A DNA stretch of 43,591 nt from an uncultured Alphaproteobacteria bacterium (GTDB lineage Bacteria > Pseudomonadota > Alphaproteobacteria > Rhodobacterales > Rhodobacteraceae), in NCBI GenBank assembly GCA_902574225.1, contig CACGMO010000018.1:1-43591 (forward strand). Direction: 5' to 3'. Below, piece by piece: positions 4,559 through 30,053 of the stretch; positions within the stretch are counted from its first letter, which is position 1; every line of letters begins with the position of its first letter. The position numbers and the translations under genes were made by a program. The notes below the pieces were generated by a model. That model was given only the letters and a program-made list of their open reading frames with translations. It had not been told where the DNA came from and made no database searches.

Positions 4559-6394
4559 TTATTCGGCTGCATCTATGAAATTTATGAAACCTCCAGATTG
4601 CCTTTTCCAGAAATTTGAATAAATACCATTTTGTTTCAATAAATTAGGATGTGATCCTTGCTCTACAATTTTTCCACGGTCCAATACAATTATCCTATCC
4701 ATGTTTGAAAGGGTCGATAATCGATGGGCAATAGCGAGCACAGTTTTACCATCCATCACTTGCTCAAGAGCTTTTTGTATTGTCGCTTCTACTTCGCTAT
4801 CTAATGCGCTTGTTGCCTCATCAAGTACTAAAACTGGAGCATTTTTTATTATAGCGCGCGCAAGAGCAATACGTTGGCGTTGGCCGCCTGAAAGTTTAAC
4901 TCCACGTTCTCCTAAAAAAGCCTCGTATCCTCTACGGCCATTGTTGTCTATGAGGTCTTTAATAAACTCGTGAGCACCTGCCTTTATGGACGCGGAACTG
5001 ACTTCTTCAAATGAGGCATCAGGTTTTCCATAAAGTATGTTTTCCTTTGCAGACCTGTTAAACATTGAAGTTTCCTGTGACACCATGCCGATCTGACGCC
5101 GAAGGCTGTCTTGGGTTACATGCAAAATGTTTTGCCCATCAATAAAAATCCCACCGGATTCTGGATCGTGCAACCTCAATAGTAAGTTAACTAGTGTAGA
5201 TTTCCCCGCCCCAGACGCTCCAACAAGACCAATCTTTTCTCCAGGCTCTATTGTAAACGAAATTTCATTTACACTGGCGATCTTTTGCCCGTAGGAGAAT
5301 GAGACATTTTTAAATTGAATTTTACCATGTGGTATGATTAGAGTATCTGCATTGTTTCTATCAAGCATAGTCTGAGGGACCGCCAAAGTATGCATGGCGT
5401 CTTCAACTTCACCAAGCTTTGTGTAAATGGTCATTAACGAAAAACCAACCCAGCCTGCCATCATTGTTAGACGCATTGATACTGAACCAGCAGCAACAAT
5501 TTCACCAGGAGATATTTTTCCTTGAAACCAAAGAGCGATAGCAAAGGCAAAAACGGCTGCAAAAACTATGCTAGCATATATCATCATAAAAGTTCGAAAC
5601 CAAACGAGTTCACTACCGTAGATAGTGAGTTTTTTACGAAGCTTTCCAAAAGCTTTCAAGGCAGCTGAGTCCTCGTGTTTTGAGTTCGCAAATATTTTGA
5701 CCACATTGATATTGCTTATAGTGTCTACAATTTGACCCGTGGCAACGGCTTGCGCGTTTGCTGTCGTAGCTGCTTTTGCTTTAATGCGCGGCATGAAAAA
5801 ACGCATTACAAAAACAAAGCCAACAAACCACAAAAGTACAACTGATCCGATCCGCCAATCTATTATGCTTATTATAACTACGGCAGCTATCACTGAAATA
5901 AGAGCGAACAAGACCGTGTGTATACTTTCAACCACTACATCTGTTAACGCATTAGCTGCCTGAACCTCTTTTTGTGCCACACGCCCGGCAAAATCATTTT
6001 CAAAAAAGGTTTTTGAATGACCTAACGTCCATCGATGAATACGGGTGGCTATTAGGGTTCTAATACCTGGCGTCAGTATTACAGACTGGATGTATGCTGA
6101 AACTGCAAAAAATAACGGCCTTGCTCCTAGCAAAAAGACAACGGCAATAATTAGCACAAACAGCTTTTCTGACAACAAAACGCTAGGGTCATTATCGAGT
6201 AATAAATCCAAGATAAACCCCATCAACGCTGCTGTAAGTGTTTCTGCAATCGCAGATAATATACTTGCCACAGCGGCCAAGCCTATTACAAGATGGCTGC
6301 CGCTCAAGCACCAGTAACAAAACTTAAAAAGGCTATCAGGTGGCGTCCCTGATGACTCTTTTAGATGATCTATAGAAAGATACGGCAGTCTCAA
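4559..6394 (-). CDS. ABC exporter, fused membrane and ATPase domains (MsbA-like half-transporter)
   Basis: 611 aa with about six membrane segments in residues 30-325, followed by a nucleotide-binding domain. Walker A is GASGAGKST at 392-400, Q-loop Gln 440, signature LSGGQ at 501-505, Walker B VLVLDEA at 521-527, D-loop SALD at 529-532 and the H-loop His at 557. Length and order are those of type IV (B-family) exporters working as dimers in the inner membrane, such as lipid, drug or peptide exporters. The substrate is not indicated by neighbours: the flanking genes are a small unknown protein and an island remnant. The N-terminal 25 residues are an unusual extension before the first membrane helix. 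All ATPase motifs are intact, so it should be functional. Confidence 0.88.
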   Translation of the reverse strand: MRLPYLSIDHLKESSGTPPDSLFKFCYWCLSGSHLVIGLAAVASILSAIAETLTAALMGFILDLLLDNDPSVLLSEKLFVLIIAVVFLLGARPLFFAVSAYIQSVILTPGIRTLIATRIHRWTLGHSKTFFENDFAGRVAQKEVQAANALTDVVVESIHTVLFALISVIAAVVIISIIDWRIGSVVLLWFVGFVFVMRFFMPRIKAKAATTANAQAVATGQIVDTISNINVVKIFANSKHEDSAALKAFGKLRKKLTIYGSELVWFRTFMMIYASIVFAAVFAFAIALWFQGKISPGEIVAAGSVSMRLTMMAGWVGFSLMTIYTKLGEVEDAMHTLAVPQTMLDRNNADTLIIPHGKIQFKNVSFSYGQKIASVNEISFTIEPGEKIGLVGASGAGKSTLVNLLLRLHDPESGGIFIDGQNILHVTQDSLRRQIGMVSQETSMFNRSAKENILYGKPDASFEEVSSASIKAGAHEFIKDLIDNNGRRGYEAFLGERGVKLSGGQRQRIALARAIIKNAPVLVLDEATSALDSEVEATIQKALEQVMDGKTVLAIAHRLSTLSNMDRIIVLDRGKIVEQGSHPNLLKQNGIYSNFWKRQSGGFINFIDAAE

Positions 6395-7225: not shown

Positions 7226-9106
7226 CTATTCGTTGAAATGATCACGAATATAGTCAGGTTGTTGGCTGGGCGGATAGGATATTGTTTCTGCATTAGTTCT
7301 AACATAAAAAAACTCATGTTTTTGATCATACCCTTTAAGCTTATTGTATTGGGAATGATTACACCATATAGGACTTCGACTAGGATCAACTCGAATAGCA
7401 CAAACATTTTCTGAACCTATCTTAGTTATTTCAATTATAATGTGTTCTACTGAACGTACTGTCAGGCTTTCCTTGATAATGTTTTGAATATCTCTTTTAT
7501 ATTTGTCGATATTTTTGAAATTGTCTTCAAATATACCAGAAATGCCACCACTGTCTTTTACTCCAACAAGAAGGGTTCCTCCCACAGAATTTAGAAATCC
7601 ACCAATAGTTTTTATAGCTGAGTGGGTTATAGCCTCGTCTTTTTTTCCACTATGCTGATTTATGAAAAAAGTTTCCTTGAATTCTACCATCTTATTCTCG
7701 TGGCCATTAATTAAACGTTTAATAAATTTGGGGTTCTTTAAATTTTCATTCCAGCTTTTTTCAACCGAGCTTCCAAAATCTTTTTTTAATTTTTTCGAAA
7801 GTTTCTCAACAAGAGTTGTTTGATAATCCCAATTCCTCTCAAGATAATCAGCATATAAACCTAGTTGGACTAGCTTTTGTCTAACACTCGCAATGGAGTA
7901 TCCTTTTTCATGAATATCTTGCTCGGAAAAATTTGTTCCTAGCAAATAGAGGTCTGGTTCTTTTGGACCCGGCAAACCACTTAACTCTCTCGAAATGGTT
8001 TCAAGCTCTAAACCGTTATTTGCTAATAATGTAAGTCTATTAGTTTTAAGCAAACTCCATTTCTCGAAACCTAACTTGTATTTCTTATCTATATGTTCTG
8101 GCTCATTACCCTCAATGTAGATTCTATAAAAGTTTTCATAAAAACGGAAAACTAAGAAAAAAACTCCAAAACAGGAAAAGCACAATAGTAATACCGCTAA
8201 GCCGTAATTTGTTTGACCCAACCCTAGTGTAAGAAGAATCAAAGATTTTATTGTTTCTGGTACTAAAAAACTTCCAAATATAAGAAAAACGTTTACGAGT
8301 AAAGTCAAAATAAACAGACCTGAAATAACTCTGTTTTTTAAATTAAGCTTTGCTGACGCTTCTCTAGCTCTATCATAAATCTTTTTATCAAAATCAAAAG
8401 CTTCCGCCTTAAATTTAGTAAAATCATCTATTCCATAAGCAGCAAGTAAATCGTCATCTGAAAGAGAATTTATTTCGTTTGTATTTTTCTTTTTAAAGGT
8501 GTTTGATCTGTTTCTTAAAAAAGAAACAACATTTTCTTTACTCTCTAAACGTAGCACATCATTCCCGTTCAAAACTGATAACGATGGGTAAACACTATCT
8601 ATCTTCACTTGGAATGGATCCAAAAATTTGTCCGTTCCCCTCATATATTCACTAAATTCACTCAAAGCTTTTATAAAACTCTTATTCTTAAATCGACTTG
8701 ATATAAGAAGGTTTCTGCTCTTTAAATTTTTAACAATAAGCGTTGGGAGGCATCCAATGACATCAGAAATTTGTACGGCATCGTAGCCAGCTAGCCAATA
8801 TTTCTGAATAACCTCTTTGTCTTCAGCAGTAAGCTTATCCTTCTTTAATTTCTTTCCTGACGATTTAAATCCTACATCTCTTAATGTGAGATTATCAATG
8901 GCTAGAAATTGACTAAGGGTAAGATTTTTCTTTTTAAGAAACTCATGTATTAGTGGTGCTCCAGAAGTATAATTGGTTATGTGAGGGGTTAGGTAAGACT
9001 TATCACTAAAGTTCTTAAGAAGAAGTTCTTTATCTCCAGTATTTTCTATCAGCTGACCTTTTTGGGCGATCTCAAGAAAATTTATTTTTTTCTTCTCTTT
9101 AGCCAT
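7226..9106 (-). CDS. Membrane protein with C-terminal Schlafen/AlbA_2 domain
   Basis: 626 aa. Residues about 92-133 (TAEDKEVIQKYWLAGYDAVQ...) look like a helix-turn-helix. Two membrane segments lie at about 259-283 and 301-323. Residues about 467-610 are an AlbA_2 domain: MVEFKET at 473-479, then GGFLNSVGGTLLVGVKDSGG at 502-521 and YVRTNAET at 601-608. AlbA_2 (Schlafen N-terminal-like) domains bind, and in some families cut, nucleic acid, and they are common in prokaryotic defence loci. Two helices that anchor such a domain at the inner membrane, with both large parts probably cytoplasmic, is an unusual layout. It is transcribed away from the caspase operon and shares a 97-bp gap with it. A role as sensor or effector of module A is possible but unproven. 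Confidence 0.7.
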   Translation of the reverse strand: MAKEKKKINFLEIAQKGQLIENTGDKELLLKNFSDKSYLTPHITNYTSGAPLIHEFLKKKNLTLSQFLAIDNLTLRDVGFKSSGKKLKKDKLTAEDKEVIQKYWLAGYDAVQISDVIGCLPTLIVKNLKSRNLLISSRFKNKSFIKALSEFSEYMRGTDKFLDPFQVKIDSVYPSLSVLNGNDVLRLESKENVVSFLRNRSNTFKKKNTNEINSLSDDDLLAAYGIDDFTKFKAEAFDFDKKIYDRAREASAKLNLKNRVISGLFILTLLVNVFLIFGSFLVPETIKSLILLTLGLGQTNYGLAVLLLCFSCFGVFFLVFRFYENFYRIYIEGNEPEHIDKKYKLGFEKWSLLKTNRLTLLANNGLELETISRELSGLPGPKEPDLYLLGTNFSEQDIHEKGYSIASVRQKLVQLGLYADYLERNWDYQTTLVEKLSKKLKKDFGSSVEKSWNENLKNPKFIKRLINGHENKMVEFKETFFINQHSGKKDEAITHSAIKTIGGFLNSVGGTLLVGVKDSGGISGIFEDNFKNIDKYKRDIQNIIKESLTVRSVEHIIIEITKIGSENVCAIRVDPSRSPIWCNHSQYNKLKGYDQKHEFFYVRTNAETISYPPSQQPDYIRDHFNE

Positions 9107-9203: not shown

Positions 9204-9410
9204 TTGAAAATTTTTGAAAAAAAAAATTGCCTTAAGGTTCTGAAGATACCGTTCTTCCTGGTTTCTCTGAGTTTTTTGACCGGCTGCTGGTGGCAAGAGA
9301 TGCTCTGTAATTCCGCAATGAGAGATGAACACAATAATAGTAGAATGTTTTATGATGAATGCACGGCGATTAATGATCCGGCGACAAGGGGCTGGTTACT
9401 TGAACAATAA
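9204..9410 (+). CDS. Small lipoprotein, first gene of the caspase operon
   Basis: 68 aa from a TTG codon. Residues 10-27 are hydrophobic (LKVLKIPFFLVSLSFLTG) and end in a lipobox L-T-G-C with Cys 28, so it should be lipidated and exported. The mature part is only about 40 residues, with two more cysteines (Cys 35 and Cys 53) that could form a disulphide. The ribosome site is weak, so the exact start is uncertain. It lies 18 bp upstream of the next small membrane protein gene and looks co-transcribed with the caspase gene. No function is recognised. Confidence 0.55.
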   Translation: MKIFEKKNCLKVLKIPFFLVSLSFLTGCWWQEMLCNSAMRDEHNNSRMFYDECTAINDPATRGWLLEQ

Positions 9411-9428
9411 AACCATATGGAGTCAGAA

Positions 9429-9716
9429 ATGACAGCTATTCGATATACAGTGATATTGTTAATTTTGTCATCGTGTATGGCCTACGGCTTATATGTTTAT
9501 TTTGACTGGGGATCAGCAAAGGAATTTCAAAAGGATGTTGATTGGCTTTTTTGGGCTTGTGTGAAGATACTACAAGATTGGGGGAGGTGGACAGGTCTTG
9601 GCTACAATCTTTTAAACATTATTATATTTATAATTCTTCAGCCACTACTTATCTTAATATTCTTCGTACTTTGGAGGATAGAGGTGTCAAAAAGAAAAAG
9701 ACGAGATGGTTTCTAA
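9429..9716 (+). CDS. Small two-helix membrane protein (TGLGYNL family)
   Basis: 95 aa from ATG 9429, chosen because GGAG lies 6 bases upstream; the in-frame ATG at 9417 lacks a site. One membrane helix or signal anchor is at about 6-25 and a second at 61-82, followed by a basic tail. The block from about 39 to 90 (FWACVKILQDWG, then TGLGYNLLNIIIFIILQP) is 34 of 52 identical to the 99-aa protein at 15339-15638, on the other side of the sigma factor. It overlaps the caspase gene start by 11 bp, so the two are likely translationally coupled. The function is unknown; the conserved TGxxYNLxNIxIF and QPxLILIFF motifs suggest a specific partner in the membrane. Confidence 0.7.
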   Translation: MTAIRYTVILLILSSCMAYGLYVYFDWGSAKEFQKDVDWLFWACVKILQDWGRWTGLGYNLLNIIIFIILQPLLILIFFVLWRIEVSKRKRRDGF

Positions 9717-12324
9717 TTTTAAAAACTTAAGACCATACAATGCAGCACAATCTTTAGCTTGGATAAAGAGCAGTCGAATATTAAGCGTTCTTATCATGAC
9801 TTTGAGCATAATGTTCTTTGGCTTTGCTTCATATGCTTCCGAAGATATGGATTTAGTGAAACTTAAAAGGTCTGCAGACGCTGGGGTTCCAAAAAGCCAG
9901 TTGGAGTTGGCACTAATATATTCTGAGGGAGCAAACGGTATCAGGAAAAATACTGAAGCGGCTATTAAGTGGTTTCGTCTGGCTGCATCTGCAGGAAATT
10001 CTGATGCACAGGTACTCCTTGCTGATGCAATACGAAGAGGCCTAGGAACACAAAGAGATATAAACGAAGCTATTATTTGGTACAAAATGGCAGCAGAAAA
10101 TGGAAACCCAATGGCCTTTGCAAGCCTTGGTCAAATTTATTTAGAGGGTGAGGGCGTAGTAAAAGATATTACAGAGGCGCTTGAATGGCTTAAACGCGGT
10201 GCAGAAGCTGATAACCCCTATTCACAAATGCGGTTAGGAGACAGTTATTTAGCGGGCCAAGGTGTTGAACGCAGTAAAGCAGAGGCTGAAAAATGGTACG
10301 AAAGAGCGATGACGAACTTAGAGCACCAGCGTCTTTTAAGATTAGGGAATAACTATCTATTTGGGAAAGGTGTTGAAAGAAATTTAGTAACGTCTTTCAA
10401 AAATTTTGCTGAGACGGCGAAGGGGGGGAATGCTGAAGGTCAGTTTAGAGTTGGGGATGCGCTCTACAAAGGTCTCGGAATTCCAAAAAATAAAAGAGAT
10501 GCAATACAGTGGTACAGTAAAGCCGCTAATAAAGGCAACATCTTTGCAAAACATGCCCTGGCACAGGCATATTTTAATGGTGATGGAGTTAGACAGGATA
10601 GATTAAAGGCATTAGAAATGCTTGAGGAAGCGGTAGAAGAAGGACATATTGACAGCTTATTTGCCCTTGGTCAGCTCTATCTACAAGGCGATTTTGTTGA
10701 GAAAAATATTAATAAAGCCTTCACCTTGTTTGAAAAGGCGGCAAAGCAAGGAGATGCAAACAGCCAATATGACGTTGGACTTCTTTTAAAAACAGGTGTG
10801 GGTGTTCAACAAAATGTAAAGGAGGCTTTCAAATGGTTTATGCTTGCCTCTGATCAAAATAATCCTGACGCACAACTAGAATTAGGATTGGCTTTCAGCG
10901 CTGGGAGTGGCGTTGAGAAAAACTTTTCAGAAGCATACAAATGGTTTCTTGTATCTGCGGAGGGAGGAAATAAGATTGCGCAAAACGAAGTTGGCAGAGC
11001 TTTAAGGGATGGATTAGGAGCCCCTAAAGATATGCAACAGGCTTTTGGTTGGTTTGTTAAATCCGCTAATCTTGGTTATAAAGAGGCGATGACAAATGTG
11101 GGGCTAGCCTATCTAGATGGCCAAGGAGTTATCAAAAACATCCAAGACGCAATAGAATGGTTCCGAAAAAGCGCTGATCAGGGTGATGCTAACGCTGAAT
11201 ACCATCTCGCAAAAATGTATTCTTCAGGAGTACATGTTTCTCCTAACCCGACAGAGGCATTCAAATTGATGCAGAGCGCTGCATTAAATGGGCTCGTTGT
11301 GGCGCAAAGGGAGTTAGGCGAGTTTTACAGCAAAGGAGTGGGTACAACAAAAAACCCATCTATGGCATTCGAGTGGCTAAATAAGGCCTCCGAGAACGAT
11401 GATGGTCGTGCCCATTATTTACTTGCTCAGGCTTATTTCAGGGGAGATGGAACGCAGAAAGATAGTAATATGGCCCTCCTTAAAGCTCAAAAAGCTTTAT
11501 CCCTCGGAATTTCAGAAGCATCTTTTTTAGTGGAGGTTTTGTCATCTTCAGCGGACATAAAAAGTAATCCTGTCCTTGATGAGGGTAAAGAGATAGAGTT
11601 TGGTAATTACTATGCTCTTATAATTGGAAATGATGATTATCAAAACGTCGATAAATTAAATACAGGTGCTGTTGATGCGAAGGCTGTAAATGAGATACTT
11701 AAAACAAAATTCAATTTTAAAACCGAATTGCTGATAAACCAATCTCGAACACAGATTTTGGATACATTATATAGTTACAGAACCAAACTTACTGAAAGTG
11801 ATAACTTATTAATTTTTTATTCTGGCCACGGTGAAAAAGATAAAAAGACTAATAGAGGTCACTGGCTTCCAGTTGATGCAGACCCTGAGAAGAAGTACAC
11901 ATGGATTTCCAATAGTGCCATCTTAGACGAAATAGAAGCCTCAGATGCCAAACATATTTTACTCGTTATTGACTCTTGTTTCTCAGGAATATTTGCAGAG
12001 AAACGTCTAAGGGAGAAAGAAGGGGTAAAGTCAATTCAAAGAGAGCTCCTCGAACAGAAAAGTCAATTGAAATCACGATGGGTAATGACTGCTGGTGGTG
12101 ATGAACCTGTCTTCGATGCTGCTCAGGGAGAAAATTCGATTTTTGTTAAGCATTTTTTGTTAGCACTTACTAAAGTTTCACAACCTATTACTGCAATGCA
12201 ACTTTTTGATCAAAGCATTAAAAACAGCGTTGAGCTAAATAGTAACCAAGTGCCTACGTATAGCCAAATTCAGCATGTAGATAGTCGAGGTGGCGAATTT
12301 ATCTTTGTGCGCGCTAAAAACTGA
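9706..12324 (+). CDS. Exported Sel1-repeat protein with C-terminal caspase domain
   Basis: 872 aa. Residues 24-44 are a hydrophobic signal segment ending FASYA, so the protein is probably exported and cut after Ala 44. About fifteen Sel1 (TPR-like) repeats follow, each with the A..L...Y..G.GV..N...A..W...AA..G pattern, up to about residue 610. The caspase (peptidase C14) domain covers about 640-870, with the catalytic His 708 in YSGHGE and Cys 758 in IDSCFSG. Both dyad residues are present, so it should be an active cysteine protease. Sel1 arrays usually bind protein partners. It is the last gene of an operon with two small membrane or lipid-anchored proteins. Its 3' end overlaps the 3' end of the anti-sigma-like gene by 11 bp. 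A role in defence, envelope stress or programmed death is inferred. If the signal segment is instead an anchor, the domains would still face the periplasm. Confidence 0.88.
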   Translation: MVSNFKNLRPYNAAQSLAWIKSSRILSVLIMTLSIMFFGFASYASEDMDLVKLKRSADAGVPKSQLELALIYSEGANGIRKNTEAAIKWFRLAASAGNSDAQVLLADAIRRGLGTQRDINEAIIWYKMAAENGNPMAFASLGQIYLEGEGVVKDITEALEWLKRGAEADNPYSQMRLGDSYLAGQGVERSKAEAEKWYERAMTNLEHQRLLRLGNNYLFGKGVERNLVTSFKNFAETAKGGNAEGQFRVGDALYKGLGIPKNKRDAIQWYSKAANKGNIFAKHALAQAYFNGDGVRQDRLKALEMLEEAVEEGHIDSLFALGQLYLQGDFVEKNINKAFTLFEKAAKQGDANSQYDVGLLLKTGVGVQQNVKEAFKWFMLASDQNNPDAQLELGLAFSAGSGVEKNFSEAYKWFLVSAEGGNKIAQNEVGRALRDGLGAPKDMQQAFGWFVKSANLGYKEAMTNVGLAYLDGQGVIKNIQDAIEWFRKSADQGDANAEYHLAKMYSSGVHVSPNPTEAFKLMQSAALNGLVVAQRELGEFYSKGVGTTKNPSMAFEWLNKASENDDGRAHYLLAQAYFRGDGTQKDSNMALLKAQKALSLGISEASFLVEVLSSSADIKSNPVLDEGKEIEFGNYYALIIGNDDYQNVDKLNTGAVDAKAVNEILKTKFNFKTELLINQSRTQILDTLYSYRTKLTESDNLLIFYSGHGEKDKKTNRGHWLPVDADPEKKYTWISNSAILDEIEASDAKHILLVIDSCFSGIFAEKRLREKEGVKSIQRELLEQKSQLKSRWVMTAGGDEPVFDAAQGENSIFVKHFLLALTKVSQPITAMQLFDQSIKNSVELNSNQVPTYSQIQHVDSRGGEFIFVRAKN

Positions 12325-13648
12325 ATGAGGATCCTTTAGGATAAAGAGGGTAGACTTTCTCAGTTTTCCAATCACCATCCTTATCGATAGCAACTCTATC
12401 AACAACACCATCTTCGTTTTCATCCAACAGCCATCGGAATGAATACTTCCCCTGATTATCAATTGATACCAACCCAAGACCATCTATAACTCTGTTGTCG
12501 TCCCGATCTATAGACATCTGCCATCCTGTATTTTCTTCATTTCGATGGGATATTATATTTGCATACCCACTATCATTTACATCTATATAAAAACTTCCGT
12601 CTCTTTGCCAAATAGCAGTATTAGGATCGCTAATCTCGTTACCATTCTCTGATGCATTATCGGCTATTGATAAAATCGACTTATCAATGATTTTATTACC
12701 CAACTCTATTTTCACCGTTCTGGAAAATAAGGAGCGTGGTACTGCCATAAAATTACTTGATGCCGTTTTTAAAAGATTGTCTCCATTTTTTAGAATTGTG
12801 AATCCAATAATCTGAGACTCAATTTTCTCCTCATTATCGTTAGGTGTATGAATATACTGAATGTAGTCTAGACCAACGGGGCCAATAACTTCATATGGGC
12901 CAAGCGACTTAGTTTCACCTTTCTTTATTGGCTTTCTATCGAGGAGGACCTGTTTTTCTCCTTTTGAGTCTTGATAAATTAAAGTTATGAGGCCAGAGCT
13001 TAATCCCTTTAAATCTATTCCAAGCTCAGCGCCAGTCACAACAAAATCTCCATTATCTAATTTATATGAAAAATCTTTTTTAAGATTAACAGTAATATCA
13101 ATTGTACCTTTCATGTCACCGGATAATGTCCGTCGTTTATCAGACTTCCGCTCAAGACCCTTTTTTTTCAGAGAGCTTTCTTTGTCTAAAAATACACCCA
13201 CATTAGCAAGTTTAATTTCGTTTACCAATTGATCAGAGCGCTCACCTGCTTGGAAGGAAGAATAAAATTCCCTTGCCAAGCTTTCATTACTTGTTGTCTG
13301 CAATTGATAAGCGCCTGTCCCAATGAAAATGCCAAAAGCGGCTATTGAGGCGGCTATAGCTCCACTACCAAAGTTGCCAAAGCTGAAACGAGCCCGCTTC
13401 TTTTTTTCTAAGCTTTCTTCCTTTTCAATTCTTTTCTTTCGGAGTCTTGCATAGAGGAGTTCAGGCATTTCCTTCTTTTCTTTAGTGTGCTTTAGCATCA
13501 CTGTATTTGCCAATTGAAACTTATAAATTCGTGCTTCTAATTCTTTATCTTTTACGCGAGCATTGCTTATATTGCTGGCTAGTTCAGGACTGGCATCGCC
13601 ATCCACATATTGCATTATTTGTTCATCTGTAAAGTCCATTCTACTCAT
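12314..13648 (-). CDS. Membrane-spanning anti-sigma-like protein with Asp-rich periplasmic repeats
   Basis: 444 aa. The N-terminus (DFTDEQIMQYVDGDASPELA) has the look of a short anti-sigma domain without the zinc-binding HxxxCxxC. A charged linker follows and then one membrane helix at about 94-115. Residues 116-444 would be periplasmic. Near the C-terminus there are three Asp/Asn-rich loops, DRDDNRVIDG (381-390), DENEDGVVDR (409-418) and DKDGDW (422-427), like EF-hand or thrombospondin-3 calcium loops. Its start codon overlaps the sigma stop (4 bp), the standard arrangement for an ECF sigma and its anti-sigma. I infer that it holds the sigma factor inactive until the periplasmic part is altered. 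The neighbouring exported caspase is a candidate for that. Confidence 0.75.
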   Translation of the reverse strand: MSRMDFTDEQIMQYVDGDASPELASNISNARVKDKELEARIYKFQLANTVMLKHTKEKKEMPELLYARLRKKRIEKEESLEKKKRARFSFGNFGSGAIAASIAAFGIFIGTGAYQLQTTSNESLAREFYSSFQAGERSDQLVNEIKLANVGVFLDKESSLKKKGLERKSDKRRTLSGDMKGTIDITVNLKKDFSYKLDNGDFVVTGAELGIDLKGLSSGLITLIYQDSKGEKQVLLDRKPIKKGETKSLGPYEVIGPVGLDYIQYIHTPNDNEEKIESQIIGFTILKNGDNLLKTASSNFMAVPRSLFSRTVKIELGNKIIDKSILSIADNASENGNEISDPNTAIWQRDGSFYIDVNDSGYANIISHRNEENTGWQMSIDRDDNRVIDGLGLVSIDNQGKYSFRWLLDENEDGVVDRVAIDKDGDWKTEKVYPLYPKGSSFSF

Positions 13649-14205
13649 TCCTCATTAGTGCTCTGTAATTGCTTATAAAGACAGTTTGAAAATGATTTCT
13701 TTGCTCTTGCAAGGAGAGGTAAGAGGGTTCCAAGTGGCATGCCAAGAAGCTTACTCATTCTTTCGGTTGTCATTGGCTTCCCTGAGCGATCATCGCGTCC
13801 ATTAATTTGCAAATAGAAAACTTGATATTGTTTTTCACTAAGTTTTTTAAGACACGTTTCGTAAGCTATGTTGGTATATACTTCTTCTGATACGTCAACA
13901 TTGAGATATGCTTCTGACATGTTTCTGATATCCGTTAGGATAATGTCATAATTTTTTTTACGCCGCCCTTTATCTATGTATATTCTTTCGAGGATCGTAC
14001 GCGCCCAAGCAAGAAAATGCTTCCCATCGAATTGGTCCATTTTTTCTATGCATCGAACACATGTATCGTGAACTATTTCTTCCGCTTCACTTTCATTCCT
14101 ATAACCATTTTTACTCTGTAGATAAAACATCCTATCAAACAGCTTTTGGTAGGAGTCTTTAAGCTGATCTTCAATCAAAACTTGCCAGTTTGTTTTGCGG
14201 TCCAA
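13645..14205 (-). CDS. ECF-like RNA polymerase sigma factor
   Basis: 186 aa from a TTG with GAGG 9 bases upstream. Region 2 is visible at about 40-85: EAEEIVHDTCVRCIEKMDQF, then DGKHFLAWARTILERIYIDKGRR. Region 4 is at about 115-175, starting LSEKQYQVFYLQ and including TTERMSKLLGMPLGTLLPLLARAKKSF as the promoter-binding helix-turn-helix. Length and the absence of regions 1 and 3 are typical of ECF (group 4) factors. It shares a 130-bp divergent region with the small-gene array, where a candidate promoter of its own type is found, and it is coupled to the anti-sigma-like gene. Likely function: switching on the array and perhaps the caspase operon. Confidence 0.85.
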   Translation of the reverse strand: MDRKTNWQVLIEDQLKDSYQKLFDRMFYLQSKNGYRNESEAEEIVHDTCVRCIEKMDQFDGKHFLAWARTILERIYIDKGRRKKNYDIILTDIRNMSEAYLNVDVSEEVYTNIAYETCLKKLSEKQYQVFYLQINGRDDRSGKPMTTERMSKLLGMPLGTLLPLLARAKKSFSNCLYKQLQSTNEE

Positions 14206-14274
14206 TGCAGAAACCTCGAATCATTTCATCTAAAATCTTTAGGAAAAATAGGACAAACTTTTTTTTTTAACAAC

Positions 14275-14305
14275 TGCAATAAAATCCACCTTCCACTCGT
14301 TAAGT
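14275..14305 (+). promoter_or_regulatory. Candidate ECF promoter of the small-gene array
   Basis: TGCAAT at 14275-14280, 11 bases, then TCCACTCGTTAAGT at 14292-14305. Read as an ECF promoter this is TGCAAT-N17-CGTT, with CGTT at 14298, 38 bp before the ATG at 14336. The same two blocks with the same 11-bp spacer occur at 16608-16638. The site lies in the gap divergent from the sigma gene. That the sigma factor at 13645-14205 uses it is inference. Confidence 0.7.
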
Positions 14306-14335
14306 ACTTTTGATCGCACAAAAATAGGTGAAAAA

Positions 14336-14578
14336 ATGGATAAATTTATAGTCTTTGCAACAATCTTTTTTCAAGGTGAGGTAAAACAGTTGGAATATAA
14401 GGCAATCGATTTCTCAACGAAGGAAGAGTGTTATGAATATATGACTAAACATGACAAGCACTTTGGTGAGGTTGTAGATGACATACGACAAAGCATCCAA
14501 CCTACGGGTAGACTTCTTGTTATTGGTTGTTCCGAGCGGAATAAAATTGTTCGCAATGACAACGGTGAATGGAATTGA
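14336..14578 (+). CDS. Small two-cysteine family protein, copy 1
   Basis: 80 aa, first gene after the candidate ECF promoter. Pattern: a short hydrophobic start (FIVFATIFF), an F-x-T-x-x-x-C-x-x-Y segment with Cys 32, and a C-terminal strand LLVIGC with Cys 65. The two cysteines are 33 residues apart, as in copies 2 and 5, and this copy is plainly most similar to copy 2 (FNGE/FQGE, LEY, CxEYxTK, GxLL). There is no signal peptide, so it is probably cytoplasmic. No known family is recognised; a small alpha/beta protein is likely. Confidence 0.65.
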   Translation: MDKFIVFATIFFQGEVKQLEYKAIDFSTKEECYEYMTKHDKHFGEVVDDIRQSIQPTGRLLVIGCSERNKIVRNDNGEWN

Positions 14579-14584
14579 ATTGAA

Positions 14585-14830
14585 ATGAGTCTTTTTATTA
14601 TTTGGGCAACCGTGGCCTTTAATGGTGAGGCCACTAACTTAGAGTATCAAGGTGGTTTGTTTAAAACACACGAAAAGTGTATTGAGTATTTAACGAAAGA
14701 AGAAAGTTACGTTTTAGAAACTCTCAATGAACATATTGATAATAAATATCCAGATGGAAAATTACTCATGTTGGCGTGTGGCGCTAGATCTAATTTTGAA
14801 AAATATAAACGATTAGATGAAACAATATGA
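14585..14830 (+). CDS. Small two-cysteine family protein, copy 2
   Basis: 81 aa, 6 bp after copy 1 and clearly its duplicate: FIIWATVAFNGEATNLEYQG, then FKTHEKCIEYLTKE (Cys 32) and KLLMLACGAR (Cys 65). It lacks a signal peptide. The positions of both cysteines are identical to copy 1 although the rest has diverged, which suggests that the cysteines matter. It overlaps the start of a possible broken gene by 4 bp. Function unknown. Confidence 0.65.
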   Translation: MSLFIIWATVAFNGEATNLEYQGGLFKTHEKCIEYLTKEESYVLETLNEHIDNKYPDGKLLMLACGARSNFEKYKRLDETI

Positions 14831-14964
14831 ACACGGATGCAGTATCTTTGTCAGAGGTATCCCCTTGAGGAGAAATTGAGATAGAAAGAGTAACTCATGA
14901 GCACAAAGATAAGTTTTCATGCAATGTGTAAGATCAAAATGGAATTTTTAAAATAATTTTTTAA
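14827..14964 (+). pseudogene. Possible broken small gene with two in-frame stops
   Basis: An ATG overlaps the stop of the preceding gene in the ATGA style. The frame reads MNTDAVSLSEVSP, a TGA at 14866-14868, then GEIEIERVTHEHKDKFSCNV, a TAA at 14929-14931, then DQNGIFKIIF and a final stop at 14962-14964. Between the stops the translation looks protein-like, with alternating hydrophobic and charged residues. The array is otherwise packed tightly, so a decayed member is plausible in this 198-bp gap. It may equally be chance. Confidence 0.25.
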
Positions 14965-14966
14965 AA

Positions 14967-14997
14967 CACAATAATACTGCGCTCTCATTCGTTCAGT
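14967..14997 (+). promoter_or_regulatory. Third, weaker copy of the ECF promoter motif
   Basis: CACAAT at 14967-14972, exactly 11 bases, then CTCATTCGTTCAGT at 14984-14997. The second block matches the shared 14-mer at 10 of 14 positions and keeps CGTT. The first block keeps CAAT. CGTT at 14990 is 39 bp before the ATG at 15029, close to the 38 and 34 bp at the two better sites. The conserved geometry is what makes this worth listing. Confidence 0.5.
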
Positions 14998-15028
14998 GAA
15001 TTAGGTAACGATAAACAGGGAGCAAATT

Positions 15029-15316
15029 ATGAGCATTACGCTTGAAAGTAATTTTTCACATCATGCGATAAAGCGATCACAGCAAAGAGGAATAAGACCT
15101 TGGGTTGTAAATTTTATTTTGGAATACGCAGACAAATATAAGCACGCAAACGAAAGTTGCATCTCACAATTTATTTCTAAACGTAGGGTCAAAAAACTCA
15201 TTCAGGAAAATGTTTTGTCACCCGCGAAGGCAGCACTAATAGACGGAGTGGTTGTGATCGCTAAGGATGAAACCATAGTAACTGTCTTCCATAAGAAAAT
15301 GCGCTTTCGTAAATAA
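15029..15316 (+). CDS. DUF4258-like small protein
   Basis: 95 aa, AGGGAG 8 bases upstream. The HHAIKRSQQRGIRPWVVNFI segment near the N-terminus and the C-terminal VVVIAKDETIVTVFHKKMRF match the pattern of DUF4258-like proteins (H..xR..QRGI, then a strand pair ending in T-V-hydrophobic-H/Y). That fold is RelE/BECR-like and some members are thought to be toxins or nucleases; I cannot tell whether this one is active. It sits behind the third candidate promoter and 22 bp before the membrane protein gene, so it is probably first in its own transcript. No antitoxin-like partner is obvious. Confidence 0.55.
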   Translation: MSITLESNFSHHAIKRSQQRGIRPWVVNFILEYADKYKHANESCISQFISKRRVKKLIQENVLSPAKAALIDGVVVIAKDETIVTVFHKKMRFRK

Positions 15317-15338
15317 CTCAAGAAAAGGAAAGAGAATA

Positions 15339-15638
15339 ATGGAAGTTAAAATCCCAATAAAAAAGCCCCCGGTAATCGACACTTTGCCTAACAGTCTAAG
15401 TACAGCTGAGGAACAGCTTAATATGCTTTTGAAGGATAAATTCTTTGGTTTTACTAATTTTATAGATCTGGTCTTTTGGTGGTGTGTGGACATTTTACAT
15501 GTATGGGGAGATATTACTGGTCTTGGCTATAATCTTATAAACATCTTAATTTTTATCCTGCTACAACCCGCTCTAATTTTAATATTCTTCACATTATGGA
15601 TCGTTGAACGTGCACGAAGAGGGGGGTCTCATGGTTAG
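15339..15638 (+). CDS. Small membrane protein (TGLGYNL family), second copy
   Basis: 99 aa. A soluble N-terminal stretch of about 40 residues starts with KIPIKKPPVIDTLP. The shared block at about 43-95 follows (FWWCVDILHVWGDITGLGYN, then LINILIFILLQP and LILIFFTLW), with one clear membrane helix at about 66-87 and a basic end. It is 34 of 52 identical in this block to the protein at 9429-9716, which precedes the caspase. The N-terminal helix of that paralogue is absent here. It overlaps the next gene by 8 bp. A membrane partner for the module is likely; function unknown. Confidence 0.68.
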   Translation: MEVKIPIKKPPVIDTLPNSLSTAEEQLNMLLKDKFFGFTNFIDLVFWWCVDILHVWGDITGLGYNLINILIFILLQPALILIFFTLWIVERARRGGSHG

Positions 15639-15909
15639 TACCACTACATGGATTGTTTTCGCACAACTCGTTATCTTCAACCCTCAGAGCAATGGAAATG
15701 AAAATGAGCTTACTGAATTTAGACAAAGAGAGTTTCCAACGCAAAGCCAATGCTACCAGTTCTTGCACGACAACTATGTGTTTCTCGATACAGCTCTAAA
15801 AAGACATGCGGAAAGACGAAATGGCCGCGTAATAATCTTGGGTTGTGGAGATCGAGCAGAACTAAGTGAGATCTCGTCAGACTATGACCGTCAATACGGA
15901 CGAGGATAA
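15631..15909 (+). CDS. Small two-cysteine family protein, copy 3
   Basis: 92 aa from ATG 15631, chosen because a G-rich site (AGAGGGGGG) lies 5 bases upstream; a longer TTG frame from 15604 would run inside the preceding gene. The family pattern is WIVFAQLVIF, FPTQSQCYQFL with Cys 41, and RVIILGC with Cys 72, 31 residues apart. There is no signal peptide. It is divergent from copies 1 and 2 but aligns at both cysteines and the preceding strands. Function unknown. Confidence 0.62.
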   Translation: MVSTTTWIVFAQLVIFNPQSNGNENELTEFRQREFPTQSQCYQFLHDNYVFLDTALKRHAERRNGRVIILGCGDRAELSEISSDYDRQYGRG

Positions 15910-15939
15910 AAACATTTTAAAAAAGAAAAGGAGAAGAAA

Positions 15940-16152
15940 ATGCCATTTGATGAACATAATTATGAATATGTAAGAGATAATAGTTTCGCTCAAAAAAGAG
16001 CACTTGTTGCTGATAGCAGGTTTAAAATTATTCAAAAGAGACAAACGAAAAAACGATTTGATAAGCCAATTGTATATTTCTTAATAGGTGCGACGCTTTT
16101 TTTCTTGTTTATTCAGATGGGAATAATCACCCCGATGACTTTGCATTCATGA
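15940..16152 (+). CDS. Small single-helix membrane protein
   Basis: 70 aa with a good AGGAG ribosome site 7 bases upstream. A charged N-terminal half (EYVRDNSFAQKRALVADSRF) is followed by a basic patch (KKRFDK) and one membrane helix at about 45-63 (IVYFLIGATLFFLFIQMGI). Positive residues just before the helix suggest that the N-terminus stays in the cytoplasm. Its stop overlaps the next start by 4 bp. Unknown function. Confidence 0.6.
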   Translation: MPFDEHNYEYVRDNSFAQKRALVADSRFKIIQKRQTKKRFDKPIVYFLIGATLFFLFIQMGIITPMTLHS

Positions 16153-16328
16153 ATTGGAAATACATAATAGCTGCTACAGTTCTAGTATATTTCCTAAGGG
16201 GAGATGAGTGGTTTCTATATTTTGCTGCCTATGCAGATTATTGCTATGAATTTCAAGGTATCAACAAAACAACAGAAGACCTTGGCAACTTTTTTTCATG
16301 CTTCTCTAAAGCAGCAACCTTTCAATAG
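16149..16328 (+). CDS. 59-aa membrane-associated protein
   Basis: Starts MNWKYIIAATVLVYFLRGDE, followed by WFLYFAAYADYCYEFQGINK and ends FSKAATFQ. The ATG overlaps the preceding stop (ATGA) and the gene ends 11 bp before the next start, so spacing strongly suggests that it is translated. The first 16 residues can form a signal anchor. Two cysteines (Cys 32 and Cys 51) lie after it. No family is recognised. Confidence 0.5.
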   Translation: MNWKYIIAATVLVYFLRGDEWFLYFAAYADYCYEFQGINKTTEDLGNFFSCFSKAATFQ

Positions 16329-16339
16329 CTAGTTAGATC

Positions 16340-16594
16340 ATGGCAAATATTTGGTATTTGGTAGCTATAATGTTTGGAGTTCATGAAGATGGAAAAGTAG
16401 ACGTTTATATTTTTAAAGAACCAAAAAACGCTCCAGGTTTTTACTCGACCATTTCATGTCAAAATTATGTAAGTGCAAACGCAAGTTACTTAGCTGAAAC
16501 CCTGAGAATTCAATATGGTGATCGTCCTGTGAAACAACTTTTATGTGCCCAAGTAGATAGTGTTAAGTATCTAATCGAAAATACGAAGAGATAA
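16340..16594 (+). CDS. Small two-cysteine family protein, copy 4
   Basis: 84 aa. The family pattern is WYLVAIMFGV, FYSTISCQNYVSANASYLAE with Cys 40, and VKQLLCAQ with Cys 69, 29 residues apart. The C-x-x-Y-x-x-x-N-x-x-x-L stretch is closest to copies 3 and 5. There is no signal peptide. It is the last gene before the second strong promoter motif. The ribosome site is weak, so the ATG is chosen by frame and spacing. Confidence 0.6.
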   Translation: MANIWYLVAIMFGVHEDGKVDVYIFKEPKNAPGFYSTISCQNYVSANASYLAETLRIQYGDRPVKQLLCAQVDSVKYLIENTKR

Positions 16595-16607
16595 AGAGCT
16601 TTAGCAG

Positions 16608-16638
16608 TGCAATATTTTCGAACATCCACTCGTTAAGT
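16608..16638 (+). promoter_or_regulatory. Candidate ECF promoter of the lipoprotein gene
   Basis: TGCAAT at 16608-16613, 11 bases, then TCCACTCGTTAAGT at 16625-16638, identical in both blocks and in spacing to the site at 14275-14305, although the spacer sequences differ. CGTT at 16631 is 34 bp before the GTG start at 16665. Two exact blocks at a fixed distance before two related genes are unlikely by chance. Confidence 0.7.
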
Positions 16639-16664
16639 TAAGAGAAAGTAGGAAAGGATTTAAT

Positions 16665-17072
16665 GTGCAAAACCGATTTATATTTATAGTTTTTTCAGCG
16701 CTCCTTGCTTTAAGTGGTTGCGTGACTACAGATCAGCCCTCTAACGGTTTTACCAAGATAAAAGAAGAAGATATTAGGAGCCTCGAAAAAGAAAAAACGG
16801 AAAAATCAAACGAGAAATCTAGTCAGTACTTTGTTGTTGCACAATTAAGATCAGTTAATGACCAGCCACAAGAATTTCTTGAGTTTAAGAGTAAAAGGTT
16901 CGCGGACATTAGTGCATGCGTGAATTGGATGAGTGAGAATAATAATTTAATAACACAAAGTCTGCAAAAGCATGTAACGAACCGAAAAAAGGGATATTTC
17001 GTCGATAACATCAAGTGTCTTAAGACAAGCATGTTCTTTCAAGTACGTGCAAGTGAAGCTATTAGTGTGTAA
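16665..17072 (+). CDS. Lipoprotein form of the two-cysteine family, copy 5
   Basis: 135 aa from GTG, with AAAGGA 6 bases upstream. The signal peptide has a lipobox L-S-G-C, giving a lipidated Cys 19. A charged linker (about 20-52, rich in Lys and Glu) leads to the family domain: YFVVAQLRSVND, FADISACVNWMSENN with Cys 85, and YFVDNIKC with Cys 118, 33 residues apart. A member with a lipoprotein signal shows that the domain can work outside the inner membrane, whereas the other four lack signals. It has its own candidate ECF promoter. Function unknown. Confidence 0.68.
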   Translation: MQNRFIFIVFSALLALSGCVTTDQPSNGFTKIKEEDIRSLEKEKTEKSNEKSSQYFVVAQLRSVNDQPQEFLEFKSKRFADISACVNWMSENNNLITQSLQKHVTNRKKGYFVDNIKCLKTSMFFQVRASEAISV

Positions 17073-29888: not shown

Positions 29889-29977
29889 TGTGGGCCTTAA
29901 TGTGGGCCTAGCAATATCATATATTTTTAAGTTGCTGATTTATATGACATTTTAAGGATTGTATGGCGGAGGAGGTG
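29889..29977. other. Candidate attachment site at tRNA-Ser: TGTGGG arm pair plus tRNA core
   Basis: TGTGGGCC boxes start at 29889 and 29901 (12 bp apart). The core TATGGCGGAGGAGGTG at 29962-29977 is the tRNA-Ser 3' end, including the encoded CCA. The GCGGA of the core begins 65 bp after the second box, the same as at 1822/1887. Here the arms lie inside the proposed island, as expected for an integrase site of an element inserted at the tRNA. Confidence 0.6.
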
Positions 29978-30053
29978 GGATTCGAACCCACGGTAGACTT
30001 TCACCTACGTCGGTTTTCAAGACCGGTGCATTCAACCACTCTGCCACTCCTCC
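29964..30053 (-). tRNA. tRNA-Ser (anticodon UGA)
   Basis: 90 nt on the minus strand. The acceptor stem GGAGGAG pairs with CTCCTCC, the CCA end is encoded, and the T-arm GTGGGTTCGAATCCCAC is intact. The anticodon loop CTTGAAA gives UGA at 30017-30019. A variable arm of the long class II type follows, as expected for serine. The 3' end faces the accessory region on the left. Confidence 0.95.

Follow-up and report, generated by a model that had tools for sequence, protein, structure and literature searches.

A Candidate Transmembrane Caspase-to-Sigma Switch with a Small-Protein Regulon in Ocean Alphaproteobacteria

In the DegS-RseA-RseP-sigmaE envelope stress pathway, an extracytoplasmic function (ECF) sigma factor that drives a genome-wide regulon is controlled by a single-span anti-sigma. 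Prokaryotic caspases of family Peptidase C14 cleave after Arg or Lys, and, to our knowledge, the roles of bacterial caspases, exported ones above all, are largely open. Here, we describe a 14-gene cassette combining a caspase, an ECF sigma factor, a putative anti-sigma, and an array of small proteins, located at positions 9204 to 17072 of a 43,591-nucleotide stretch (the window; contig 18, i.e., CACGMO010000018.1, of a 2.09-Mb, 88% complete genome of an uncultured member of the Rhodobacteraceae). We read the cassette as a transmembrane caspase-to-sigma switch, with a probability of roughly 0.45; cleavage, export, and defence are the parts of this reading that we infer. The set, found in some ocean bacteria including rare SAR11 relatives, may be an undescribed alarm system.

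A caspase-fold protease that relieves an anti-sigma has a precedent in Craspase, in which Csx29 cleaves Csx30 and relieves CASP-sigma, and the sigma motifs lie within the same locus (PMC10028731). Craspase/DiCASP and the cassette share a protease with a repeat domain and a caspase fold, an inhibitor of an ECF-type sigma factor, sigma motifs in the locus itself, and a defence setting. Craspase is cytoplasmic and RNA guided and belongs to a type III-E CRISPR locus, with Csx29 being a TPR-CHAT protein, whereas the cassette has an export-type N-terminus, a putative membrane-spanning anti-sigma, Sel1 or MORN repeats, and a C14 caspase domain. No Cas7-11 or other CRISPR gene was present among the window proteins scanned, nor was any CRISPR-type array present among direct repeats of ≥18 bases (positions 6300 to 31300). 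By analogy, the cassette may work like Craspase in that a caspase-fold protease would relieve a sigma inhibitor.

Operons joining a caspase to a sigma-70 factor have been known since 2012 from Myxococcus xanthus and others, in several phyla (PMC3501461). Section 13 of that account, which covers these metacaspase operons, names no anti-sigma, export, or small-protein regulon. In the same account, orthocaspases with Sel1 or TPR repeats resemble the cassette caspase in having Peptidase_C14 plus repeats and a His-Cys dyad. The first-pass annotation of this DNA, made from the sequence alone, knew of no named system with this set. For the set as a whole, this still holds: no description of a caspase, ECF sigma factor, anti-sigma, and small-protein set was found in the titles and abstract openings of the literature searched, outside which most subscription journals lie. 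Regarding its logic, the claim must be narrowed, given the caspase/sigma-70 operons and the Csx29-Csx30-CASP-sigma relay of these two sources (PMC3501461; PMC10028731).

Like the DegS-RseA-sigmaE pathway, the cassette has an ECF sigma factor with a putative single-span anti-sigma, and the versions in SAR11 and at loci L104 and L113 add an HtrA/trypsin-like protease. Unlike that pathway, the caspase is the constant protease, and the regulon is local and made of small proteins. Similarity to RseA is weak (RseA_N, E 0.002 for the L113 anti-sigma, below the cut-off). A Pfam scan of ten cassette proteins of the window revealed no trypsin-, HtrA-, or DegS-like site-1 protease; such a candidate is HtrA-like at locus L103 and trypsin-like at other loci. 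We judge that protease release of a sigma factor is a known principle and that the protease, its location, and the regulon are what is unusual here. New features are the small-protein promoter regulon, the remote SAR11-type versions with their Arg motif, and the anti-phage neighbors.

All of the parts named in the first-pass annotation were recovered by open reading frame (ORF), profile, and hydropathy checks (Table 1). The caspase, with 15 Sel1 repeats (E 1.2e-121), a Peptidase_C14 domain (E 4.2e-21; 76.1 bits versus a cut-off of 21.4), a His-Cys dyad, and a DSCFSG motif, qualifies as a prokaryotic caspase; the dyad (His708 and Cys758), which had been called intact, is invariant in 7/7 orthologues. 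NCBIfam NF047832 (caspase, EACC1-associated type) matched at E 2.3e-18, below the model cut-off, and the caspase domain had no match among solved structures at 1e-3. A hydrophobic stretch at residues 20 to 38 (hydropathy) suggests that the protein is probably exported.

Profiles and hydropathy also agreed with the proposed sigma factor next to a single-span anti-sigma-like protein with a large C-terminal part. The sigma factor (TIGR02937, 49.9 bits versus a cut-off of 42.9; Sigma70_r2, 34.1 versus 24) is, on sequence criteria, a member of the ECF family (group IV), and its region 4 by itself scores 14.4 bits, under the cut-off of 25.7. Across seven cassettes (see below), it is 87 to 99% identical. 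The anti-sigma, whose gene overlaps the sigma gene, has one hydrophobic span (residues 93 to 111) followed by a C-terminal part of ~330 residues, and that of the window matches no Pfam or NCBIfam family. Profile alignment (hhalign) with the SAR11 anti-sigma gave a probability of 89% (E 2.4e-6; residues 9 to 115), and the SAR11 protein (L103) matches the PRK13920 anti-sigmaE model at E 9.7e-5, below the cut-off. A DUF4384 domain in the anti-sigma was a lead only (E 0.024 in one of three orthologues scanned; hhalign probability, 21%) and was dropped.

The predicted regulon of this sigma factor is local. An ECF-type motif, CAATA-N15-TCGTT-N-[AG]GT, lies ahead of s1, the DUF4258-like gene, and s5. 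Among the genus's 22 genomes, its exact form has 19 copies, all of them in the 7 cassette genomes and none in the 15 sister genomes; this confinement led us to reject a chance promoter. Seventeen of the 19 exact sites precede array genes (in genome G007, where s1 is lost, the site is at the same place), and the other two (G010:C7 and G012:C18), which fall within unrelated coding regions, were discounted as chance matches. With four variant sites (matrix scores of 18 to 23; next best, 11), the total is 21, i.e., three for each of the seven cassettes, scored with a matrix that was trained on 13 of these 21 sites. Only exact or matrix matches were used, because a search of the window with two mismatches allowed was uninformative (5 matches versus 2.57 by chance). 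The s1/s5 promoter pair is the sole direct repeat family of ≥18 bases in 25 kb (6300 to 31300). No site precedes the caspase operon or the sigma gene in any of the seven loci (best matrix scores, ≤3.0). Given that the motif lies ahead of small-protein genes and never ahead of the caspase or sigma gene, the predicted sigma regulon consists of small proteins. The first-pass alternative, a caspase that is itself the effector controlled by the sigma factor, is therefore rejected for the cassette.

The set, which had been proposed as a system from a single genome, recurs as a unit: the anti-sigma was found in 7 of 101 genomes, all 7 being among the 22 from the genus, whereas the 79 other relatives gave none. 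We compared the neighborhoods of the six relatives over stretches of 18.6 to 19.9 kb. The genes keep much the same order whichever strand the cassette is on and in varied surroundings, and orthologues of ~36 to 100% identity in these six genomes indicate that the cassette genes are not chance ORFs. The sigma factor, anti-sigma, caspase, DUF4258-like protein, mpB, s2, s3, and s5 are present in 7/7 cassettes (the end of s3 is frame-shifted in G013, and s5 of G003 lies ~7 kb from the cassette); s1, t1, and t2 are each in six, s4 is in four, and mpA is whole in six. In several relatives, the short first gene, lpx, is reduced to a fragment, lies elsewhere, or was not found, and BLAST detected a homologue or fragment in four of the six (two of these displaced or truncated). 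In a class-wide sample of 385 genomes, the sigma factor had no relative at 1e-8 except the window's own, the anti-sigma had only weak matches (E 1.9e-4 to 0.0085, in four genomes), and a caspase was found in at least 87 genomes, a lower bound since the window's own caspase was missed. Between G007 (L014) and the window, mpA is 94% identical and the caspase 67%; from this contrast, there seems to be a recombination breakpoint inside the Sel1 array.

The reading that best fits the gene anatomy places the caspase, as a protease, upstream of the anti-sigma. The anti-sigma would hold the sigma factor at the inner membrane, and the caspase, made independently of the sigma factor, would reside in the periplasm with its Sel1 array as the likely recognition part. 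The trigger would be envelope damage or invasion, with phage as the leading candidate because of the defence-gene neighborhood. Once triggered, the caspase would cut the anti-sigma linker directly or activate another protease that does, and host intramembrane and cytoplasmic proteases would complete the removal of the anti-sigma. The freed sigma factor would switch on only the local array (s1 to s5, the DUF4258-like gene, mpB, t1, and t2), whose small, partly membrane-bound products would be the effectors.

A caspase-domain scan of 84,980 species genomes yielded 179 relatives; the analysis retained the best 80 (six from cassettes and 74 others). Iterated profiles and inspection placed a sigma/anti-sigma pair beside the caspase in eight of the 74 non-cassette loci, namely, six in the Pelagibacterales/SAR11 (L094, L096, L103, L110, L115, and L116) and two in other alphaproteobacteria (L104 and L113). 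Four further loci (L060, L086, L100, and L106) have a Pfam-confirmed sigma factor 1.7 to 6 kb from the caspase. Five SAR11 loci have consecutive genes for the sigma factor, anti-sigma, and a MORN-repeat caspase, each overlapping the next head to tail. Directly adjoining this row is a gene for a trypsin/HtrA-like protease, with one or two additional caspase genes nearby. The L103 sigma factor matches NF058625 (E 4.3e-14) and TIGR02937 (E 5.5e-8), both below the cut-offs, and no Pfam family at 0.05. The system is rare in SAR11: in a search of 247 genomes from the order, the one genome that had it was that of the query itself.

These SAR11 loci have a motif related to that of the cassette, GAATA-N15-CGT[TC], with 26 sites in the five loci compared with an average of 0.18 to 0.3 per letter-shuffled locus. 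Twenty-three sites lie 6 to 23 bases before an ORF of 33 to 95 codons; one of the rest is within a caspase gene, and two have no ORF of ≥30 codons. A stricter form occurs 14 times in five whole genomes, every time at the caspase-sigma locus. Two SAR11 loci encode members of the mpA/mpB family (before iteration, E 1.8e-12 and 2.5e-11; after an iteration that included them, 9.5e-27 and 3.7e-25). Some SAR11 array members (L103, 7000 to 7215; L096, 3780 to 4007; and others) carry three KYNPxxGxWxYE-type repeats behind a signal-like N-terminus, and several others have a near-identical 5' leader reading like MNTNKQLTKGNKMKK. Adjacent DUF4384, OmpA-like, and caspase genes were seen in another alphaproteobacterium (L145, 4565 to 9530), and a row of caspase, OmpA-like, sigma, and anti-sigma-like genes was seen in the Burkholderiales (L100); the OmpA-like genes and the latter anti-sigma were named by eye.

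The anti-sigmas of seven remote loci (five SAR11, L104, and L113) each contain one copy of the pattern [LIVMKF][KVMLQ][LMFYTKI]R[GS]; in the four that were measured, its Arg lies 11 or 36 residues past the span. In SAR11, each of the five trypsin/HtrA-like proteins has two copies, one just past the signal-like N-terminus and the other ~20 to 30 residues ahead of the protease domain (as delimited in L103), and the L104 and L113 trypsins carry it once each, ~30 residues before that domain. The total in the eight loci is 34 versus 6.8 in shuffled proteins, a ratio that is not a probability since the sequences are related, and some matches fall in caspase domains or elsewhere. As a motif common to the anti-sigma and the neighboring protease in 7/8 remote loci, it is a candidate cut site. 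In the SAR11 version, the trypsin/HtrA-like protease would provide a further step; the same Arg motif occurs in its pro-region and in the linker of the anti-sigma. At L104 (3788 to 6859) and L113 (3761 to 6829), a protein of 1,022 to 1,023 amino acids with a signal-like N-terminus has KKYRS at residue 696 and lies beside the sigma operon.

Several observations weigh against the switch. The first-pass annotation had made its proposal depend on the caspase and sigma pair keeping company: within the cassette lineage they do (7/7, in loci that were found through the anti-sigma), but in the wide family 62 of the 74 non-cassette loci (from the best 80 of 179; 34 of the 74 loci are under 15 kb) have no sigma factor that our own profiles could find in the flanks covered, which also sets these orthocaspase relatives apart from the cassette. 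In a quick caspase-domain tree, in which L096 and L075 form long branches, the copies from the cassette, from SAR11, and from L104/L113 do not group together, and a single common origin of the sigma-linked caspases is not supported. Together, these two results indicate that the association arose repeatedly or was often lost. In addition, the cassette and SAR11 sigma factors are not significantly alike by hhalign; the Arg pattern is absent from L096; the window lineage's anti-sigma has IKxAN at the SAR11-aligned place and a conserved Arg at 172/173, before TLS; and the predicted model of the anti-sigma is poor (predicted local distance difference test [pLDDT] score, 38) and was left out of the fold search. 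The motif was assigned to this sigma factor through co-occurrence and ECF-like form, a shared insertion hotspot could explain part of the defence neighborhood, and the trypsin-like protease could itself cut the anti-sigma.

Some of these points bear on the best-surviving alternative, in which the caspase acts in parallel in the periplasm, as an effector or as a processing enzyme (e.g., maturing s5 or other exported small proteins), and the anti-sigma senses alone through its periplasmic part. The large, conserved C-terminal part of the anti-sigma, whose Asp-rich repeats resemble those at which the SAR11 protease ends, suggests that the anti-sigma itself includes a sensor; in BLAST, the G007 anti-sigma and the L110 protease are 35% identical over 85 residues of these repeats (E 1.8e-6, in a composition-biased comparison within a 14-sequence set). 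That the caspase family at large is not sigma linked and that the window's anti-sigma has no Arg motif at the aligned site would also fit. However, the presence of the caspase in 7/7 cassettes, the overlapping sigma, anti-sigma, and caspase genes of the five SAR11 loci, and the Arg motif common to the anti-sigma and protease all argue against independent roles, and we regard this alternative as unlikely.

A second alternative, which we consider distinctly improbable, is that the SAR11-type trypsin/HtrA-like protease is the real DegS-like site-1 protease and the caspase only its activator, with the window cassette using an unrelated host protease. The L103 protease (Trypsin_2 above the cut-off) does resemble HtrA/Do (E 2.5e-31) and DegS (E 7.9e-16), both below the model cut-offs, and the Arg motif shortly before the protease domain is zymogen-like. 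At the position that we take to be equivalent to trypsin 189, placed by counting back from the catalytic Ser, two of the six proteases read (L104 and L113) have the Asp that would favor this view, but the four SAR11 copies read have Pro (L115 was left out). The lack of such a protease among the scanned window cassette proteins also argues against it.

Known or candidate defence proteins adjoin at least four of the seven cassettes (E 1e-40 or better), a lower bound because only part of the flanks was scanned with PADLOC-DB 2023 (seven flanking ORFs of three relatives and seven of the window, chosen partly after Pfam defence hints). The window has MzaB, MzaC, MzaE, and a GajB-like (generic UvrD) helicase; G012 has ZorB, ZorC, and ZorD 131 bases after s5; and a PbeC/DndD-like protein (G010) and a ZorD/DpdE-like helicase (G002) lie beside their cassettes. 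At SAR11 locus L096, MzaC and MzaE reach the same level (E 1e-40 or better), and MzaD scores 1.1e-25. Pfam defence hints were found in flanking ORFs of ≥250 codons at L010 (3 of 6), L009 (1 of 5), and L011 (3 of 7) and in none at L012 to L014. For comparison, ten control regions of 20 kb were taken from five of these genomes (an eleventh was dropped for its size; some regions look orthologous between genomes). Their 133 ORFs gave one member each of ShosA, PDC-S68, and typeIV_RecD and none of Zorya, Mza, Pbe, or Dnd. The caspase, anti-sigma, and sigma factor themselves match no defence system described in PADLOC-DB 2023: the matches of the caspase were limited to a generic caspase model (E 4.9e-13) and a PtuA of the repeat type (E 4.3e-11), the sigma factor had one marginal GajB match (E 0.00096), and the anti-sigma had none.

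The small proteins of the array were also placed largely as the first-pass annotation had them. The five paralogues of its array of tiny genes are s1 to s5, with s5 being a lipoprotein-like form with the same domain; membership extends to the DUF4258-like gene (15029 to 15316), t1, and t2; and the paralogous membrane proteins, mpA and mpB, match each other in BLAST. Two Cys residues are invariant in 30 aligned s1 to s5 sequences (the frame-shifted s3 of G013 was left out). The best Foldseek match of the s1 model (pLDDT, 77), and the only one under 0.001, is an uncultured-virus protein (A0A218MLC5; E 1.6e-6; template modeling [TM] score, 0.85; 33% identity), whereas at the sequence level neither s1 nor s2 had a significant match in the phage and viral collections. 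Neither mpB nor s1 had phage matches, s2 had one marginal match (E 0.7), and s1 had none in viral contigs. In G003, s5 is followed by an Adhesin_E-like gene (L025, 422 to 865; E 2.5e-6; 28.1 bits versus a cut-off of 23.7) and an lpx-like gene. A wider reading would make the set a new marine alphaproteobacterial immune architecture and an extracytoplasmic counterpart of Craspase, in which a caspase in the periplasm would detect incoming phage or damage to the envelope and trigger the anti-sigma (by way of a caspase-trypsin cascade in SAR11), whereupon the sigma factor would launch tiny, partly phage-protein-like effectors; we hold this to be rather doubtful.

The cassette sits between an AlbA_2/Schlafen-like gene (7226 to 9106; C-terminal domain, E 8.4e-15), directly before it, and the defence cluster. 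In G003, it lies beside the ABC-transporter gene known from the window (97%) and beside a gene homologous (45%) to the window's 130-amino-acid neighbor; in G013, it adjoins another homologue (43%) of this neighbor; and in G007, it is near an alcohol dehydrogenase (96%) from the window's other flank. These shared flanking genes suggest one insertion hotspot, plus other sites. A tRNA-Ser gene lies at 29964 to 30053, near the right end of the island. Relatives of the sigma factor and anti-sigma were absent from viral contigs, and sigma relatives were absent from plasmids; a phage or plasmid origin was rejected on this basis. A selfish or addiction-type island module, in which the sigma/anti-sigma pair merely silences the DUF4258-like and small membrane proteins, would suit the patchy, accessory distribution, the hotspot location, and the small membrane proteins of the array, but is very unlikely given these absences, the failure of a Pfam scan of 20 window proteins to reveal an integrase, and the lack of an att-like direct repeat of ≥18 bases in 6300 to 31300.

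The gene plan is as follows (Table 1): lpx, mpA, and the caspase are on the plus strand, the anti-sigma and sigma genes are on the minus strand, with caspase and anti-sigma tail to tail, and beyond the sigma gene the plus strand carries s1, s2, the DUF4258-like gene, mpB, s3, t1, t2, s4, and s5 in that order.

TABLE 1 Genes and predicted promoters of the cassette (window positions)
Feature	Coordinates	Strand	Description
lpx	9204..9410	+	Short, Cys-rich; lipoprotein-like N-terminus; TTG start; caspase operon begins here
mpA	9417..9716	+	Small membrane protein, two hydrophobic spans; mpB paralogue
Caspase	9706..12324	+	872 amino acids; hydrophobic N-terminus, 15 Sel1 repeats, Peptidase_C14, H708/C758
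Anti-sigma	12314..13648	-	N-terminal domain of ~90 residues, span 93-111, large putative periplasmic part, terminal Asp-rich calcium-loop-like repeats
ECF sigma factor	13645..14205	-	Sigma70_r2, E 2.4e-8; TIGR02937, E 2.6e-13
Predicted sigma promoter 1	14275..14305	+	Ahead of s1-s2; exact motif; 7/7 cassettes
s1	14336..14578	+	Small protein; beta-beta-alpha-alpha-beta in predicted model
s2	14585..14830	+	s1 paralogue
Predicted sigma promoter 2	14967..14997	+	Ahead of DUF4258-like operon; motif; 7/7 cassettes
DUF4258-like small protein	15029..15316	+	Pfam, E 0.0056 (below cut-off); PHROG 6182, E 7e-7
mpB	15339..15638	+	Small membrane protein (BLAST to mpA, hydropathy)
s3	15631..15909	+	s1 paralogue
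t1	15940..16152	+	Small protein, one hydrophobic span
t2	16149..16328	+	Short protein; no span above the 1.6 hydropathy cut
s4	16340..16594	+	s1 paralogue; in 4/7 cassettes
Predicted sigma promoter 3	16608..16638	+	Ahead of s5; motif; 7/7 cassettes
s5	16665..17072	+	Lipoprotein-like signal plus s domain; outside the cassette in some relatives, promoter retained

With a defined sigma factor, a candidate promoter, and a small regulon, one probably exported bacterial caspase becomes directly testable. If the caspase-to-sigma switch is true, a bacterial caspase pathway would signal across a membrane, and a few streamlined SAR11 members would gain an unexpected, dedicated sigma circuit. The set would also be an additional candidate defence module, one that lies beside Zorya, Mza, and Pbe/Dnd-like genes.

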